Shown here: positions 58,021 to 64,000 of the stretch, piece by piece
How positions within the stretch are numbered: the first letter of the stretch is position 1
How the letters are laid out: every line of letters starts with the position of its first letter
Translations under genes and position numbers: made by a program
The notes under the pieces: model-generated
The model's database searches: none
The model's input: the letters and a program-made list of their open reading frames with translations, nothing else
Told to the model about the DNA's origin: nothing
From: Candidatus Celerinatantimonas neptuna
GTDB lineage: Bacteria > Pseudomonadota > Gammaproteobacteria > Enterobacterales > Celerinatantimonadaceae
Assembly (NCBI GenBank): GCA_911810475.1
Contig: OU461276.1
Span: 2,667,501-2,731,500 of the forward strand
Reading direction: 5' to 3'
Length of the DNA stretch: 64,000 bases

Positions 58021-59694
58021 TTAGTCACGGTTTTGGGGGCCTCTTGGGCCATAATCGAAATTGGCACAGGCCGCGCCGAATTGATGTAGTTCAGTTGGCG
58101 CATCGTATGGGTCCAGTATTAATTCAATGACCGTTGCCTGTTTTGATGAGATCTGTTGCAGACAGGTATCTAATTGTCCATGTGTTTCGATTTTATGATA
58201 ATCGAGCGGGATTTGAGGGGCTAATGCATGGACCAGTTTTTGAAAATCCCATTGGGCTATGTCGTTGTATTTTGCTTTCATGCCCAGAATGTAGCGTTCG
58301 ATGGTATATCCCCGGTTATTTAAAATCACGATAATGGGGTTCAAATGACGGTTCAAAATGGTAGATAGTTCCTGAATGGTCATTTGCAGTGACCCATCGC
58401 CGATAAACAGCCAATGTCTTTTATCCGGTGCGGCCAGCATACTGCCCAGCAATGCAGGGAGAGTAAAACCGATGGAGCCCCAAATGGATTGCGCTATGTA
58501 ATGGCATCCGCTTGGCAGCGGCAATGTCGATAGTACAATATTGGCACAGCCATTTTCAGCCAGAATGATGTCGTCAGAGCGAAAATAGCTGTGGATCTGC
58601 GGCCACATATTATCTTGTTTCAAAGCCGCTTGCGGTTGATAGTCGATGACTTTAGATGCCGGGCGTTGAGGGCGCTTGACGCTTGTGTTGACGTCAGGGA
58701 GATCCTCTAGAAGTGTTTCAAGCAGTTTGCGGGCATTGATGCCTTCATACGTGGTCTGACCGATTGAGATATCAAATCCTCGAAGATAGATGGTTTTATC
58801 TTCTGGCAGGCCTTGTGTTGCGACCATGGAGCTCCCTTCCTGGTAGCAGGGGGCTGTCGCTAAAATAAAATCGGCTTGATGGACCCATTGGGTCTGCTCT
58901 GTATCACCTTGCATCGGATAGCTGCCAAGCCACAGCTCTGAGCTTTCATCTAATATGGCTTTACCGGTGCGAAAGCTCGCATAGGGAATATTTAATTGTT
59001 CGGCGATTTGTTGCAGCGGTTTGGCCAGCATGGAGCGATCGGCGTCCATATCAATCAGGATGAGTGGCCGAACGGCATTGTGTAACCGGGTTTTTATTTC
59101 CTGGCACGCAGTTTTTAACTGATATGGGTCATACGCTGCTGTTTGTCTGTTAAGTGGTGTGTCTGGAATATGAATATCCAGATAACTGATATTGGATGGA
59201 ATTTGCAGATACACCGGGCAGCGTTCCTGCCAGCAGGTCATGAGTGCACGGTCTATCTCCAATGGGGCGTTAGAAGGCGTGATCCGGCTGTCGGTGAGTG
59301 TGAACTCTTTGACACAATTCATAATATTGTCGAAATTACCTTCGGCCATTGAGTGATGAACGCGTAGTCTGTTTTGAATGACATAAAGCGGTGGAACACC
59401 ACTTATCATGACGACGGGGACATGTTCGGCAAAGCTTCCAGCGATACCGCAGAGTGCACTCAGATCGCCAACGCCATAAGTGGTCAGCAGGGCGGCCATG
59501 CCATTTTGCCGGGCATGCCCGTCTGCTGCGTATGCAGCATTGAGTTCGTTACAGTCTCCGACAAATTCGATCCCTTCAACATCATTGAGTTGTTCCAGTA
59601 ATTGCAAATTAAAATCACCAGGGACACCAAAAACGTAGCGTACGCCCATTTGTTTCAGGCGTCGCCAGAGAAAGGTACCGATAGTTGTACGCAT
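58021..59694 (-). CDS. ThDP-dependent 2-oxo-acid decarboxylase (indolepyruvate / phenylpyruvate / pyruvate decarboxylase type)
   Basis: 557 residues, the PDC/IPDC family. Asp27 (VPGDFN), Glu50 (GDCNELNAAYAADG), His113-His114 (RVHHS), the cofactor motif GDGSLQMTIQELSTILNRHL..NN and the GYTIE glutamate are all present, with numbering equal to Zymomonas pyruvate decarboxylase at the first three sites. It non-oxidatively decarboxylates a 2-oxo acid to an aldehyde. The adjoining aromatic aminotransferase and prephenate dehydratase favour phenylpyruvate or indolepyruvate (Ehrlich or auxin pathway), but pyruvate cannot be excluded. tyrB upstream has its own terminator, so this gene probably has a separate promoter. 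Confidence 0.85.
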   Translation of the reverse strand: MRTTIGTFLWRRLKQMGVRYVFGVPGDFNLQLLEQLNDVEGIEFVGDCNELNAAYAADGHARQNGMAALLTTYGVGDLSALCGIAGSFAEHVPVVMISGVPPLYVIQNRLRVHHSMAEGNFDNIMNCVKEFTLTDSRITPSNAPLEIDRALMTCWQERCPVYLQIPSNISYLDIHIPDTPLNRQTAAYDPYQLKTACQEIKTRLHNAVRPLILIDMDADRSMLAKPLQQIAEQLNIPYASFRTGKAILDESSELWLGSYPMQGDTEQTQWVHQADFILATAPCYQEGSSMVATQGLPEDKTIYLRGFDISIGQTTYEGINARKLLETLLEDLPDVNTSVKRPQRPASKVIDYQPQAALKQDNMWPQIHSYFRSDDIILAENGCANIVLSTLPLPSGCHYIAQSIWGSIGFTLPALLGSMLAAPDKRHWLFIGDGSLQMTIQELSTILNRHLNPIIVILNNRGYTIERYILGMKAKYNDIAQWDFQKLVHALAPQIPLDYHKIETHGQLDTCLQQISSKQATVIELILDPYDAPTELHQFGAACANFDYGPRGPQNRD

Positions 59695-59796: not shown

Positions 59797-60984
59797 TTAT
59801 TGCACGGCAGCAAATGCCTGGGCCACTTGTTCAACGTTTGAATGATTCAGGCCAGAAATACAAATCCGGCCATTGCCAACTAAGTAAATTGCATGTTTTT
59901 CACGTAATTCATCCACTTGCTGCGCACTAAAACCGGTATAGCTGAACATACCATTTTGTGTCAGGAAGTGTTGGGCGTCCACATCAGGGAGTGTGGCTTT
60001 CATTGTGTTGACTAACGTCTGGCGCATCTCCCGGATTCGATGGCGCATCTGTTCGACTTCGCTGTGCCAGATACTCACAAGCTCTGGCGTATTTAAGACT
60101 CTGTCAACTATTTGAGCCCCGAAGATAGCCGGGCTTGAGTAATTGCGTCGAACCGCAGCTTTTAACTGGCCCAGGACTTTGAGCATATTTGTTTCATTTT
60201 CACAGACAACGGATAATCCGCCGGTTCGGTGTCCATAAAGTGAGAAGATTTTTGAAAATGAGTTTGAGACCAGGCAAGGGACCCCCGCAGATACCATTTG
60301 ACGGATGACAAAAGCATCATCGTCAAGGCTACTGGATAGTCCCTGATAGGCAATGTCCATAAAAGGGATTAATTCACGGTGTTTGGCGACTTCAATAATC
60401 TGTAGCCATTGCTGTTGGTTTAGATCCGCACCTGTTGGGTTATGACAGCAAGGATGAAGAAGCACAATGCTTTGAGCCGGTAGCTGGTTGAAACAGGCAA
60501 GCATTGCTTCGAAATCAACGCCTTTGGTTTGGGGGTCGAAATAAGGATATCGGTTTACTTTAAATCCGCTGCCGGCAAAGATGGCTTCGTGGTTATCCCA
60601 GGTTGGGTTGCTAATCCAGACTTGTGAGTCGGGGAAATAGCGACTTAAAAAGTCAGCGCCTATTTTTAATGCGCCAGAGCCACCTAATGTCTGAATGGTT
60701 GCTATTTGCTGATTTTGTACAGCTGGATGATCCTGACCAAAAAGTAAACGCTGAATAGACTGGCGATAAGGTGCTAATCCTTCCATGGGTAAATAGGTGG
60801 CTGCCTTCTCTAAATCAATGGCCTGAATGGCTTGTTTGACTGATTCTAATTGGGGGACATTACCGTTTTCATCGTAATAAAGTCCGATGCTTAAATTGAC
60901 TTTATGGGGTCTTGTGTCCTGTTTGAAATCTTCGACCAATGATAAAATCGGGTCGCCGGCATAGGCGTCGACGTGTGAAAACAT
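59797..60984 (-). CDS. tyrB: Aromatic amino acid aminotransferase
   Basis: PLP enzyme interconverting aromatic amino acids and their 2-oxo acids. 395 residues, very close to E. coli Tyr[65 protein letters not shown], and the PLP lysine in [16 protein letters not shown]. It supplies or consumes phenylpyruvate, hydroxyphenylpyruvate and indolepyruvate, linking the prephenate dehydratase upstream with the decarboxylase downstream. It lies 14 nt after the YitT gene on the same strand, with AAGGAGAGA before its ATG. Confidence 0.93.
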
Positions 60985-60998
60985 GTATCTCTCCTTGT

Positions 60999-61628
60999 TT
61001 AGGCCAAATATCGGTTAGGCCTGTGATTTATCGCTATAATCAGATTGATCACAATAGCGCCAAGAATGGATGCAAGCAATATGGGTAGTGCAACGATAAA
61101 AAGCGAAGCGAGAACAATGCAGCAATCGACACCCATCTGAAACTTTCCAGCCCGAATTGAAAAGTGTTCCTGAAGGAACAATGCCAGAATATTGACGCCA
61201 CCTAAACTAGCTTTGTGTCTGAATAAAATGACAAAACCGGTGCCCATTAATAAGTTACCGAACAAAATTGCATAAAGTGGTGTAATTTTTTCAAATTGTA
61301 TGAAATCCAGGTGTAACTCTGAAAAAACAGAAACCATTGCAACGGCTGCAAAAGTCTTTATGGTGAATTCCCAGCCCATCCGTTTTATCGCTAAGAAGTA
61401 AAATGGCAGATTGATGATAAAAAAGAGATATCCGAAGGATATATGGGTGACATAATGCAGCAGAAATGCCATCCCTGCTGTTCCGCCGGTAAGTCCTCCA
61501 ACCTGTTTAAGCATGACAACGCCAAAAGAAACCAGCAGGCAACCGATTAAAATCGATAAAATATCTTCAAACCAGCGATGAGGGATGATCTCAAACTCAT
61601 CATTTAGGGAATTGGTACGGTCTGTCAT
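60999..61628 (-). CDS. YitT-family membrane protein
   Basis: 209-residue integral membrane protein with five to six membrane segments, of the YitT/DUF161 family. [20 protein letters not shown] and [20 protein letters not shown] carry the duplicated glycine-rich family motif. Transport is suspected for the family but substrates are unknown. Operon position directly before tyrB suggests movement of an aromatic amino acid, oxo acid or derived aldehyde/acid. A 213-bp gap separates it from the Lrp gene upstream, where its promoter should lie. Confidence 0.82.
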
Positions 61629-61841: not shown

Positions 61842-62315
61842 TCAGTCTGTTGATGTGTTTTGCCGGACAATCTGGTTTTCTTTTAAACGTTCGAGAATAA
61901 CCGAGGTTTTGAGCTGTCGGACAATGGTATAACCTGATAATTCTGTAATTAGCTGATTGAGTCCATCAAGGTTACGGGCGGCCACTTTGAGCTGATAATC
62001 ATGCTCTCCAGTGATTTTGAATGCATCTAAAATGGCTGGGTTTGCTGCAATCTGTTCATGAAATTGCTCAACGTGTATTGGATTATGAACATTCAGGCTG
62101 ACTTCAACTAGGCTTTGTACCTGTAGTTTCTGAGCTTTGGGGGCTAATCTGGCCTGATAACCTTCGATATATCCATTTTGTTCAAGGGCAATGCGTCGAC
62201 GCGAACATTGTGATGTTGAGAGTCCAATCAATTGGCTGAGTTCCTGATTGGTTAATCTTCCATTTCGTTGTAGATGATTCAGAATCAGCCAGTCGTAATC
62301 GTCGAGTGAAGTCAT
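61842..62315 (-). CDS. Lrp/AsnC-family transcriptional regulator
   Basis: 157 residues. The N-terminal helix-turn-helix (LDDYDWLILNHLQRNGRLTN, QELSQLIGLSTSQCSRRRIA) and C-terminal RAM/ACT-like ligand domain (ITGEHDYQLKVAARNLDGLN) are typical. It probably senses an amino acid, here likely aromatic, and controls the flanking genes. It starts 45 nt after the prephenate dehydratase fusion gene. A short palindrome (AAGCGGCCTGGCCGCTT) lies in that gap. Confidence 0.9.
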   Translation of the reverse strand: MTSLDDYDWLILNHLQRNGRLTNQELSQLIGLSTSQCSRRRIALEQNGYIEGYQARLAPKAQKLQVQSLVEVSLNVHNPIHVEQFHEQIAANPAILDAFKITGEHDYQLKVAARNLDGLNQLITELSGYTIVRQLKTSVILERLKENQIVRQNTSTD

Positions 62316-62360: not shown

Positions 62361-64000
62361 TCAATTTTGAAACAGGTAGGTCATTAATGCTTTGAATTCC
62401 GTGAAATTCAGTGACTGTTTAGGGGCCACTTTCGCATGGACCGGATCCGGGTGAATATTGAGCATGATGCCATCGACACCCAGCTGGCGGGCTGCAATCG
62501 CCAGAGGTGCGATATCTTCAGATTGAGTCACTCCATCGCATGGGTTGAGTAAAATAGGCAGATGGGTTCTTTTGCGCAGCAGTGCTATTGCGCTGAGGTC
62601 AATAATCGAACGGGTCTGATGATCCGCGGTGCGAATACCTCTTTCGCAGAGAATAACCTGTTGATTCCCCTGTGCCAGTAAATAATCAGCAGCCTGGAGC
62701 CATTCATCCAGCGAGGCAACACTTCCCCGTTCCAGAACAATGGGTCGCGTAGAATTACCCGCAGCTTTAAGCAGAGGATAGTTTTGCATATTTGCAGCAC
62801 CAATTTGCAGAACATCTACATGGCCACATATATCTCTGAGTTTATCGATATGTGTAACTTCGGTCATGATGGGTAATTCTGATTGTCTGGAGGCTTCGCT
62901 TAGCCAGTCCAAGCCAGATAATCCGGGACCTGAATAATCATAAGGGTTGCTGGATGATTTGAAGCAAGCTCCATGAAGAACGGCTGCTCCACTGTCGCTG
63001 ATGATTTCGACACATTGATTGAGTTGGTTTGGATCTTCTAATGTATCAGGTCCTGCCATTACCAAAAAATGACCATTTCCAAGCGTGTGTTTACCAATGG
63101 TGATTGAGGTGGGTTCAGGTTTATGCTGTCGGCTTGAAAGTGGGGCATCCTGATGCCGGCCGATGACTGTTGGCCTGTCCTGAATTGCAGCCATGGGCTG
63201 TGCTGCCAGAACCGATGCTGGTATTGTGGGGGCCTTGATGTCTGCACATGGGTAACATCCGAGTACTTTTATAAAGCGGGTAGTTCGGGTTAAATCGGCA
63301 AGGGCTTGTTGCATTGATTCCGATTCGACATGCTCTGTGACATCCACATAAAAGATCTCCTGCCAGGGATTGCCCTGTACCGGGCGGGATTCCAGATGTG
63401 TCATATTGATATGACGGGCTGCTAATACTTGCAGAGCATCGGCAAGTGCTCCCGGGTGTTGCCCTGTTGCCATGATAAATGTTGTTTTCGCCTGAATTTG
63501 TTGCGGAACATCAATTGGATTTCTGGCAACGGCGATAAAGCGCGTGTAATTTTCCTGTTGATTGGCAATGTGACTTTGAATACTACTGAGCTGGTACATT
63601 CTTCCGCCGGTTTCACTACCCAGCGCGGCAATTGTATGATCGTGACTTTCTGCTACCAGCTGCATAGCTTTTGATGAGCTGTCGACGACTTCAAATTTTA
63701 TATGGGGATATTGGGATAAAAACTGATTGCACTGTGAGAATGGTTGTGGATGACCATAAAGTGTCTGTATTTGGCTGATATCACATGTTTTTTTGACCAA
63801 TATGCCATGATCGACCGGAATGGTTAACTCTCCGATAATCGACAAACTGGTTTGTTGGAGCAGATCATATACTTCATTAATACTCCCGGAACTGGTGTTT
63901 TCTATCGGTAACAGAGCATAATCGGCGTGACGCTGCTCTACACTATTTACAATATCCCGAAAGTTGTGACAACCGACTTCGATGACTGGAGTGGTTGTAT
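62361..64000 (-). CDS. Prephenate dehydratase - ACT - degenerate DAHP-synthase-like fusion (5' end beyond window)
   Basis: The frame is open to the window edge, where prephenate dehydratase sequence is already running (YALLPIENTSSGSINEVYDL), so the start is outside. Then follow VDHGILV, GHPQPFSQCNQFL and the TRF motif (NYTRFIAVA), an ACT domain with phenylalanine-site motifs GAL and ESRP, a linker rich in Pro/Gln, and from about 63095 down a DAHP-synthase-like domain (CFKSSSNPYDYSGPGLSG, VLQIGAANMQNYPLLKAAG, VILCERGIRT). Expected metal or catalytic sites are altered: GPC is GPD, DPSH is NPCD, EVHP is NIHP, LKRG is LERG. I infer a working, Phe-regulated dehydratase with a non-catalytic or repurposed C-terminal domain. 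Confidence 0.85.
   Translation of the reverse strand, partial: TTTPVIEVGCHNFRDIVNSVEQRHADYALLPIENTSSGSINEVYDLLQQTSLSIIGELTIPVDHGILVKKTCDISQIQTLYGHPQPFSQCNQFLSQYPHIKFEVVDSSSKAMQLVAESHDHTIAALGSETGGRMYQLSSIQSHIANQQENYTRFIAVARNPIDVPQQIQAKTTFIMATGQHPGALADALQVLAARHINMTHLESRPVQGNPWQEIFYVDVTEHVESESMQQALADLTRTTRFIKVLGCYPCADIKAPTIPASVLAAQPMAAIQDRPTVIGRHQDAPLSSRQHKPEPTSITIGKHTLGNGHFLVMAGPDTLEDPNQLNQCVEIISDSGAAVLHGACFKSSSNPYDYSGPGLSGLDWLSEASRQSELPIMTEVTHIDKLRDICGHVDVLQIGAANMQNYPLLKAAGNSTRPIVLERGSVASLDEWLQAADYLLAQGNQQVILCERGIRTADHQTRSIIDLSAIALLRKRTHLPILLNPCDGVTQSEDIAPLAIAARQLGVDGIMLNIHPDPVHAKVAPKQSLNFTEFKALMTYLFQN

Follow-up and report, generated by a model that had tools for sequence, protein, structure and literature searches.

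The window analysed here, a stretch of 64,000 nucleotides, ends in a pheA gene whose product carries, behind its prephenate dehydratase, a barrel related to DAHP synthase (DAHPS) in which the metal ligands are replaced. The locus raises the question of why an enzyme of the phenylalanine branch should hold a copy of the first enzyme of the pathway without its catalytic residues, whether such a barrel is still folded and selected, and how it came to be joined to PheA. The reading put forward here, to which a probability of roughly 0.58 is given, is that the housekeeping PheA derives from a trifunctional chorismate mutase–prephenate dehydratase–ACT–type I-beta DAHPS, and that the barrel lost its active site but is still made, folded, and selected as a non-catalytic module.

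Domain organization and genomic setting of PheA

The pheA gene lies on the minus strand, and its part within the window (62361..64000) is an open frame that closes with a stop codon at 62363-62361 and runs off the window end. The full frame of 678 aa is uninterrupted in the genome, with its ATG 397 bases past the window end. Pfam matches on the full protein are CM_2 (residues 15-94), PDT (113-293), ACT (314-369), and DAHP_synth_1 (437-671; E 4e-47), and the domain order is chorismate mutase (CM), prephenate dehydratase (PDT), ACT, and DAHP-synthase-like barrel. The preliminary description was right that PDT and barrel are fused but incomplete as to composition, as a full N-terminal CM lies beyond the window end. 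This CM has RRKDRESQ at the eight catalytic positions of E. coli PheA that we take as reference, all identical to E. coli. The PDT domain (part within the window at 63519..64000, minus strand; PF00800, E 4e-56) contains TRF, and the ACT region (residues 305-387; 63237..63485, minus strand) contains GAL and ESRP as in E. coli PheA by Pfam and motif comparison, which bears out the earlier view of a normal PDT with these motifs. It is followed by the ACT-barrel linker (residues 388-430; 63108..63236, minus strand), where the structure model has low confidence at residues 399-415, and by the type I-beta DAHP-synthase-like barrel without a catalytic site (residues 433-676; 62370..63101, minus strand), delimited by PF00793 (E 4e-47), PDB matches, the ligand map, and the model. 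Against NF007910 (P-protein PheA), the protein scores 499.7, below the cut-off of 577.

The fused protein is the only PDT match in the window's genome. Just past the window end, upstream of pheA, a short frame (L008:4407-4536) codes for MKYVMHFFFLGFFFFTPQ, a Phe-rich leader peptide, and is followed by a terminator-like hairpin and a T run; a promoter/terminator scan of this upstream region gave no match, though the hairpin is readily recognized both on inspection and on folding of the sequence. The sole PDT match together with the leader and hairpin therefore points to the organism's housekeeping pheA, probably under Phe attenuation. The ORF upstream sits where E. coli has raiA, the gene order in E. 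coli K-12 being raiA-pheL-pheA, and Phe-rich short frames were also seen upstream in nine of the 11 other fused pheA genes examined (a count made without a shuffle control).

Several neighbouring genes are on the same strand as pheA, namely an adjoining Lrp/AsnC-like regulator (61842-62315), a membrane protein without an NCBIfam match (60999-61628), an aromatic amino acid transaminase that exceeds the NF006719 cut-off (59797-60984), and a decarboxylase (58021-59694) nearest to indolepyruvate/phenylpyruvate decarboxylases, although below the cut-off. Together with pheA, they could form a route from phenylpyruvate to phenylacetaldehyde. Elsewhere in the genome, three PF00793 matches correspond to an AroF-like type I-alpha DAHPS, whose gene is directly before aroQ-tyrA, to KdsA, and to the fused PheA. 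A type II DAHPS (L181; G000:C1:2008480-2009793; 708.9 bits to PF01474) exists beside the sole type I-alpha enzyme, and a third CM match in a 178-aa frame (L007; G000:C1:3342357-3342566) is perhaps an exported AroQ.

Loss of the active site in a conserved barrel

The barrel gives 194 bits to T. maritima DAHPS and at most 57 bits to any KDO8P synthase (KDO8PS) chain; from the AroA-beta/KDO8P-type fold named in the preliminary description, the type I-beta DAHPS assignment stands, and KDO8PS does not. The identity as a KDO8P synthase was rejected on these scores and on the presence of a separate KdsA. The barrel protein falls below the cut-offs of both DAHPS models (254.5 against 267.75 for TIGR01361; 280.5 against 335 for NF006421).

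The mapped positions of T. maritima DAHPS, whose numbering is used below, are established metal or substrate contacts. All four metal ligands are replaced (0/4 kept): C102D (codon of D451, 63045..63047), H272D (D621, 62535..62537), E298N (N647, 62457..62459), and D309A (A658, 62424..62426), all on the minus strand. Further replacements are R126H, PRTS 132-135 to SSSN, R186A, K207E (active-site Lys; codon of E556, 62730..62732, minus strand), D269N (Asp of DPSH; codon of N618, 62544..62546, minus strand), and S271C, so that the KPRTS loop reads KSSSN and LKRG reads LERG; K131, R208, E236, R237, and R240 are retained. Substitution of the metal-binding Cys, His, Glu, and Asp, of the catalytic Lys, and of the PRTSP loop had been recognized from the letters of the window and is confirmed by this mapping, to which the R126 and R186 changes are additional. 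To judge by its residues, the DAHPS-like domain is catalytically dead. As regards a substitute metal site, no conserved one was seen: D451 and D621 occur in both members of the window's genus, and the other rows of the window's family have G, S, or A and mostly Glu. A metal-independent KdsA-like enzyme was ruled out because PRTS, Lys207, Arg126, and Arg186 are lost as well.

The fold appears to have outlasted the active site. In the full-length AlphaFold model, the barrel mostly has pLDDT >90, and the whole-model pTM of 0.52 makes the placement of the domains uncertain. Foldseek aligned the window's barrel to 1zco with a TM score of 0.94 by target and an rmsd of 1.4. Families of the window's order are designated f1, f6, and so on, where f1 is the window's family and f6 may, at a guess suggested by the 2005 Shewanella paper, be Shewanellaceae. 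For f6, whose barrel has diverged much further, a model built on that family's 21 sequences reached pLDDT 94.1 and pTM 0.91, with TM scores by query of 0.81-0.89 to the listed type I-beta structures. These alignment-based models predict, rather than prove, that a homologous (beta/alpha)8 barrel is kept despite the lost catalytic residues.

The pattern of change within the barrel is uneven. Among the 33 rows of f1 and f6, the columns that are conserved in the active set are kept in 1 of 21 cases at the active site and in 26 of 65 elsewhere (p 0.002), and the non-active-site columns are kept in 19 of 33 cases within T. maritima 188-265 and in 7 of 32 outside it (p 0.005), where both p values are only a guide as the rows are related. 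The enrichment in 188-265 is seen in f6 and in the pooled rows and is absent in f1 alone (25/33 inside, 23/32 outside, p 0.78). Within this segment lie helix alpha5 and the loops beta4-alpha4 and beta5-alpha5, elements named as the interface between barrels for the P. gingivalis DAH7PS-CM model (PMC12202928). By analogy, matched on secondary-structure names and not on coordinates, 188-265 would hold most of that interface.

Two of the replacements are nearly fixed. K207E is found in 32 of the 33 rows (12/12 in f1, 20/21 in f6) and D269N in 31 (12/12 and 19/21), with R208 and D251 retained alongside, although f6 barrel identity is mostly <0.5 per segment. Such constancy in two otherwise widely diverged families would suit a remodelled pocket, with the Glu and Asn that replace Lys207 and Asp269 making up a new site; this site would sense an effector, such as an aromatic metabolite, or carry a new activity, and would tune PheA. 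Against this, the two may be an inherited structural pair inside the barrel with no site at all, and the fused copies with lost ligands in f8 and f20 g23 keep K207; a remodelled pocket is considered doubtful. The combination of loss centred on the active site, retention of 188-265, and near-fixation of K207E and D269N favours a scaffold or regulatory module, with the pocket as the bolder alternative.

Selection on the catalytically dead barrel

The ratio of substitution rates (omega) was estimated by the Nei-Gojobori method for 20 pairs of fused genes, in which 12 had a measurable barrel dS (<2) and the other eight, saturated or with dS >2, were not counted; L026, with a contig-edge frame of 526 aa, was omitted. 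In eight of the 11 measurable dead-barrel pairs, belonging to f1, f6, and f12, omega was 0.006-0.078, and barrel dN in these pairs was one to several times PDT dN. The single pair with an intact barrel gave 0.106. All three measurable pairs of f25 g28, also dead (L068-L070, L185), gave 0.21, 0.26, and 0.54, the last against L064. The fused barrel of f25 g28 is short and possibly caught in decay, which makes it a natural contrast to the window's family. Within the window's genus (L011 versus L012; dS saturated), dN was 0.196 in the barrel, 0.162 in PDT, and 0.146 in ACT. In the same comparison, the CM domain (residues 15-94) evolved much faster (dN 0.449), with its eight catalytic positions unchanged.

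The fusion is also retained as an open frame. All 12 genomes of f1 and all 21 f6 genomes sampled have it, each with a frame of at least 643 aa, and no stop or frame break was found among the 47 fused frames compared. A stop after ACT would leave an E. coli-like PheA, yet the frames of f1 and f6 stay long, which counts for retention. The preliminary description had proposed conservation of the substituted state among relatives as a check on decay; with 12 of 12 in f1 and the omega values, simple decay does not apply to the window's family.

The dead barrel is under purifying selection in most lineages tested (f1, f6, and f12, not f25 g28). A relic in slow decay, that is, a functionless barrel awaiting deletion, is how the S. 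oneidensis copy has been seen in print, where it is labelled a pseudogene (PMC1173090), and this reading would agree with the repeated absence of the domain in sister lineages, the high omega in f25 g28, and the shortened or very diverged barrels of several families (f12 and single rows of f10, f14, and f20 being very diverged). Omega far below 1 in eight of 11 pairs and unbroken frames indicate that the barrel is not a simple pseudogene, and the pseudogene label is contradicted in most lineages tested. The confident models predicted for two distant dead versions and the near-fixed K207E and D269N also argue against a relic, which is judged unlikely and is already disfavoured for f1 and f6. 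With catalysis lost, the fold kept by prediction, and the domain maintained by selection, the barrel would fit the description of a pseudoenzyme.

Intact relatives and the order of events

Among 56 fused copies, the number of metal ligands is two-humped, with nine copies keeping 4/4 and 47 keeping 0-2, where the ligand positions cannot be aligned with certainty in the rows that have diverged furthest (f10, f12, f25, L058, L067, and L100). Of the 96 free-standing type I-beta copies, 95 have the full four, the exception having three. Intact fused copies within the order belong to f14 g17 and to one f15 genome. The other six of the nine lie outside the order: one is from Iodidimonas muriae, two are from Actinomycetota MAGs, one is from a KSB1 MAG, and two are from further MAG records. 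They come from a scan of genome contigs that is no census, with 74 free-standing enzymes among the 80 matches listed. A search for the same fusion with the same substitutions, suggested in the preliminary description, finds that both recur in relatives but also that the same fusion exists with all four ligands.

In a sample of 158 genomes of the order, 33 of 140 PheA matches have a frame of at least 600 aa, and the others are of E. coli-like length or shorter. Fused copies occur in f1, f6, f8, f10, f12, f14, f15, f20, and f25, covering at least eight families of the order. A class-wide search by frame length (274 genomes, 227 with a match) gave, among the matches listed, long frames of 779 and 789 aa and one of 520 aa, all without a DAHPS part; these were rejected as fusions, their length being due to upstream read-through.

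Two barrel trees bring the fused copies together. In the first, all 48 fused rows then collected lie on one side of a branch with support of 99/89; in the second, 25 fused rows, including six from outside the order, do so at 99/88, with 31 fused rows (fast-evolving dead rows and near-copies, including L100 and L185) and 48 of the 74 free-standing scan rows left out of that tree. The intact fused rows are nearest the free-standing enzymes, and the domain order is identical in all fused copies. Trees of the PheA half behave differently. There, one group supported at 100/100 unites the PheAs of the order with the fused copies from outside it and separates them from 12 unfused PheAs of the class. 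Within this group, unfused rows, including E. coli K-12, are nested among the fused ones, frequently with a fused row of their own family as neighbour (f15, f20, and f25). Constraining the fused rows to one clade is rejected (AU p 7e-7), and the starred branches force at least six changes. One of these alignments dropped nine near-copies, and the K-12 tree dropped 14 earlier rows and added E. coli K-12.

Fused rows that stay together in the barrel trees and unfused rows that are nested in the PheA-half trees imply that the trifunctional enzyme is probably the older form. Both trees are consistent with a single fusion after which DAHPS catalysis, or the domain as a whole, was lost repeatedly, and this is the probable course. 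Catalysis was probably lost more than once because f14 has both intact (g17) and dead (g35) copies and because the partly dead copies of f8 and f20 g23 keep K207, whereas K207E is common to f1 and f6. The trees must be read with real caution, given the long branches of the dead rows and some horizontal transfer. Several independent fusions, or transfer of the barrel alone, would account for the scatter of fused and unfused rows in the PheA-half tree, and a degree of horizontal movement follows from the presence of fused copies in Actinomycetota, KSB1, and an alphaproteobacterium. The grouping of 48/48 and of 25 fused rows in the barrel trees and the common domain order speak against this explanation; the rejection of a fused clade in the PheA-half tree, taken together with the barrel tree, points to losses, and independent fusions are held to be improbable.

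A single fusion with later losses would have wider consequences. The textbook P-protein of E. coli, with its two domains, would, provided that the trees are right, be the remnant of an enzyme that once had a third catalytic domain and lost it. In the intact CM-PDT-ACT-DAHPS proteins, a single chain would unite the first step with the two Phe branch steps, and one ACT would be placed to control all of them. A more far-reaching version, which is a rather long shot, would have the PheA of the whole order, E. coli included, descend from such a three-in-one ancestor under one Phe-sensing ACT, with intact versions in several phyla, and would have the dead barrel of the window's lineage act as an effector-sensing regulatory module that tunes PheA through the Glu/Asn pair in the old site.

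Possible role of the barrel in PheA

Free-standing type I-beta DAHPS has an ACT-like regulatory domain directly N-terminal to its barrel, and the barrels pair. Pairing of barrels is also described for the P. gingivalis DAH7PS-CM model (PMC12202928). In the fused protein, the Phe-sensing ACT of PheA would occupy the position of that regulatory domain, and the barrel-barrel contacts and the ACT-barrel junction could determine how the protein oligomerizes and how CM and PDT respond to Phe. Once free-standing DAHP synthases took over the first step, the catalytic residues would have been free to go, with the scaffold retained. The barrel is now most likely a structural or regulatory module of PheA; domain order, metal-site loss, purifying selection, the four-ligand relatives, and the trees are supported by the computations, and the structural role is what we infer. 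Against a scaffold, unfused PheA works in many sister lineages, as the share of long frames in the order indicates, and the module is dispensable over evolution.

A partner outside the chain is another candidate. The dead barrel might bind an active DAHPS of the same cell and couple entry flux to phenylpyruvate production, in the manner of the Mycobacterium DAHPS-chorismate mutase pair. DAHPS-CM complexes with mutual regulation are known (PMC4281200, PMC10520331), and the window's genome has one type I-alpha and one type II DAHPS for such a contact. Both free enzymes are, however, of other DAHPS types, and there is no free type I-beta copy among the genome's three PF00793 matches. PF00793 totals, among the matches listed, are 3-4 in six f1 genomes, 5-6 in eight f6 genomes, and 2-5 in unfused ones, and no clear link of DAHPS copy number with the fusion was found across 55 genomes, among the matches listed. 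Binding to a separate DAHPS is regarded as improbable, and a module acting within PheA itself is preferred.

Comparison with known systems

The E. coli P-protein PheA (NF007910) resembles the window protein in its CM, PDT, and ACT domains, with 191 of 386 residues identical, and in having a Phe-rich leader and raiA upstream, but it ends after ACT at 386 aa. Type I-beta DAHPS, as in T. maritima (1rzm) and P. furiosus (1zco), shares fold and sequence kinship with the window's barrel, which has no metal ligands, PRTS loop, or Lys207 and falls below the cut-offs of both models, TIGR01361 and NF006421. The bifunctional DAHPS-CM enzymes (P. gingivalis, Geobacillus 5j6f, and Listeria 3nvt; NF009239) likewise have a type I-beta barrel and CM on one chain, with cross-talk between them, as outlined in the P. 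gingivalis study (PMC12202928). Their barrel is catalytic and accompanied by neither PDT nor ACT, whereas the window protein has the order CM-PDT-ACT-barrel with a dead barrel. The other related paper has exported CM fusions as its subject (PMC10520331).

The closest known case is S. oneidensis, whose AroQ-PheA with a C-terminal aroAIbeta has the same domain order as the window protein. Song et al. called the fused aroAIbeta a "bizarre" pseudogene, and Table 6 of the same report lists the fusion to aroQ-pheA as one event (event 2) in the Shewanella lineage (Song et al., 2005; PMC1173090). The fusion with a dead barrel noted in the preliminary description is accordingly real, but its arrangement was already in print for Shewanella in 2005 as a pseudogene. 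In the open-access papers searched, no further account of a dead or trifunctional CM-PDT-DAHPS fusion was found beyond that paper. In comparison with one species and a pseudogene (PMC1173090), the present analysis adds purifying selection, at least eight families, intact fused relatives, and a fusion that is probably older than the loss. New here are the selection evidence, the existence of trifunctional relatives with an intact barrel, and a probable reversal in the order of events; the fusion itself was known. A remark of 20 years ago on a "bizarre" fused pseudogene is turned into a testable conversion from enzyme to scaffold inside a housekeeping enzyme, for which living, intermediate, and dead versions of the barrel are all at hand for comparison.
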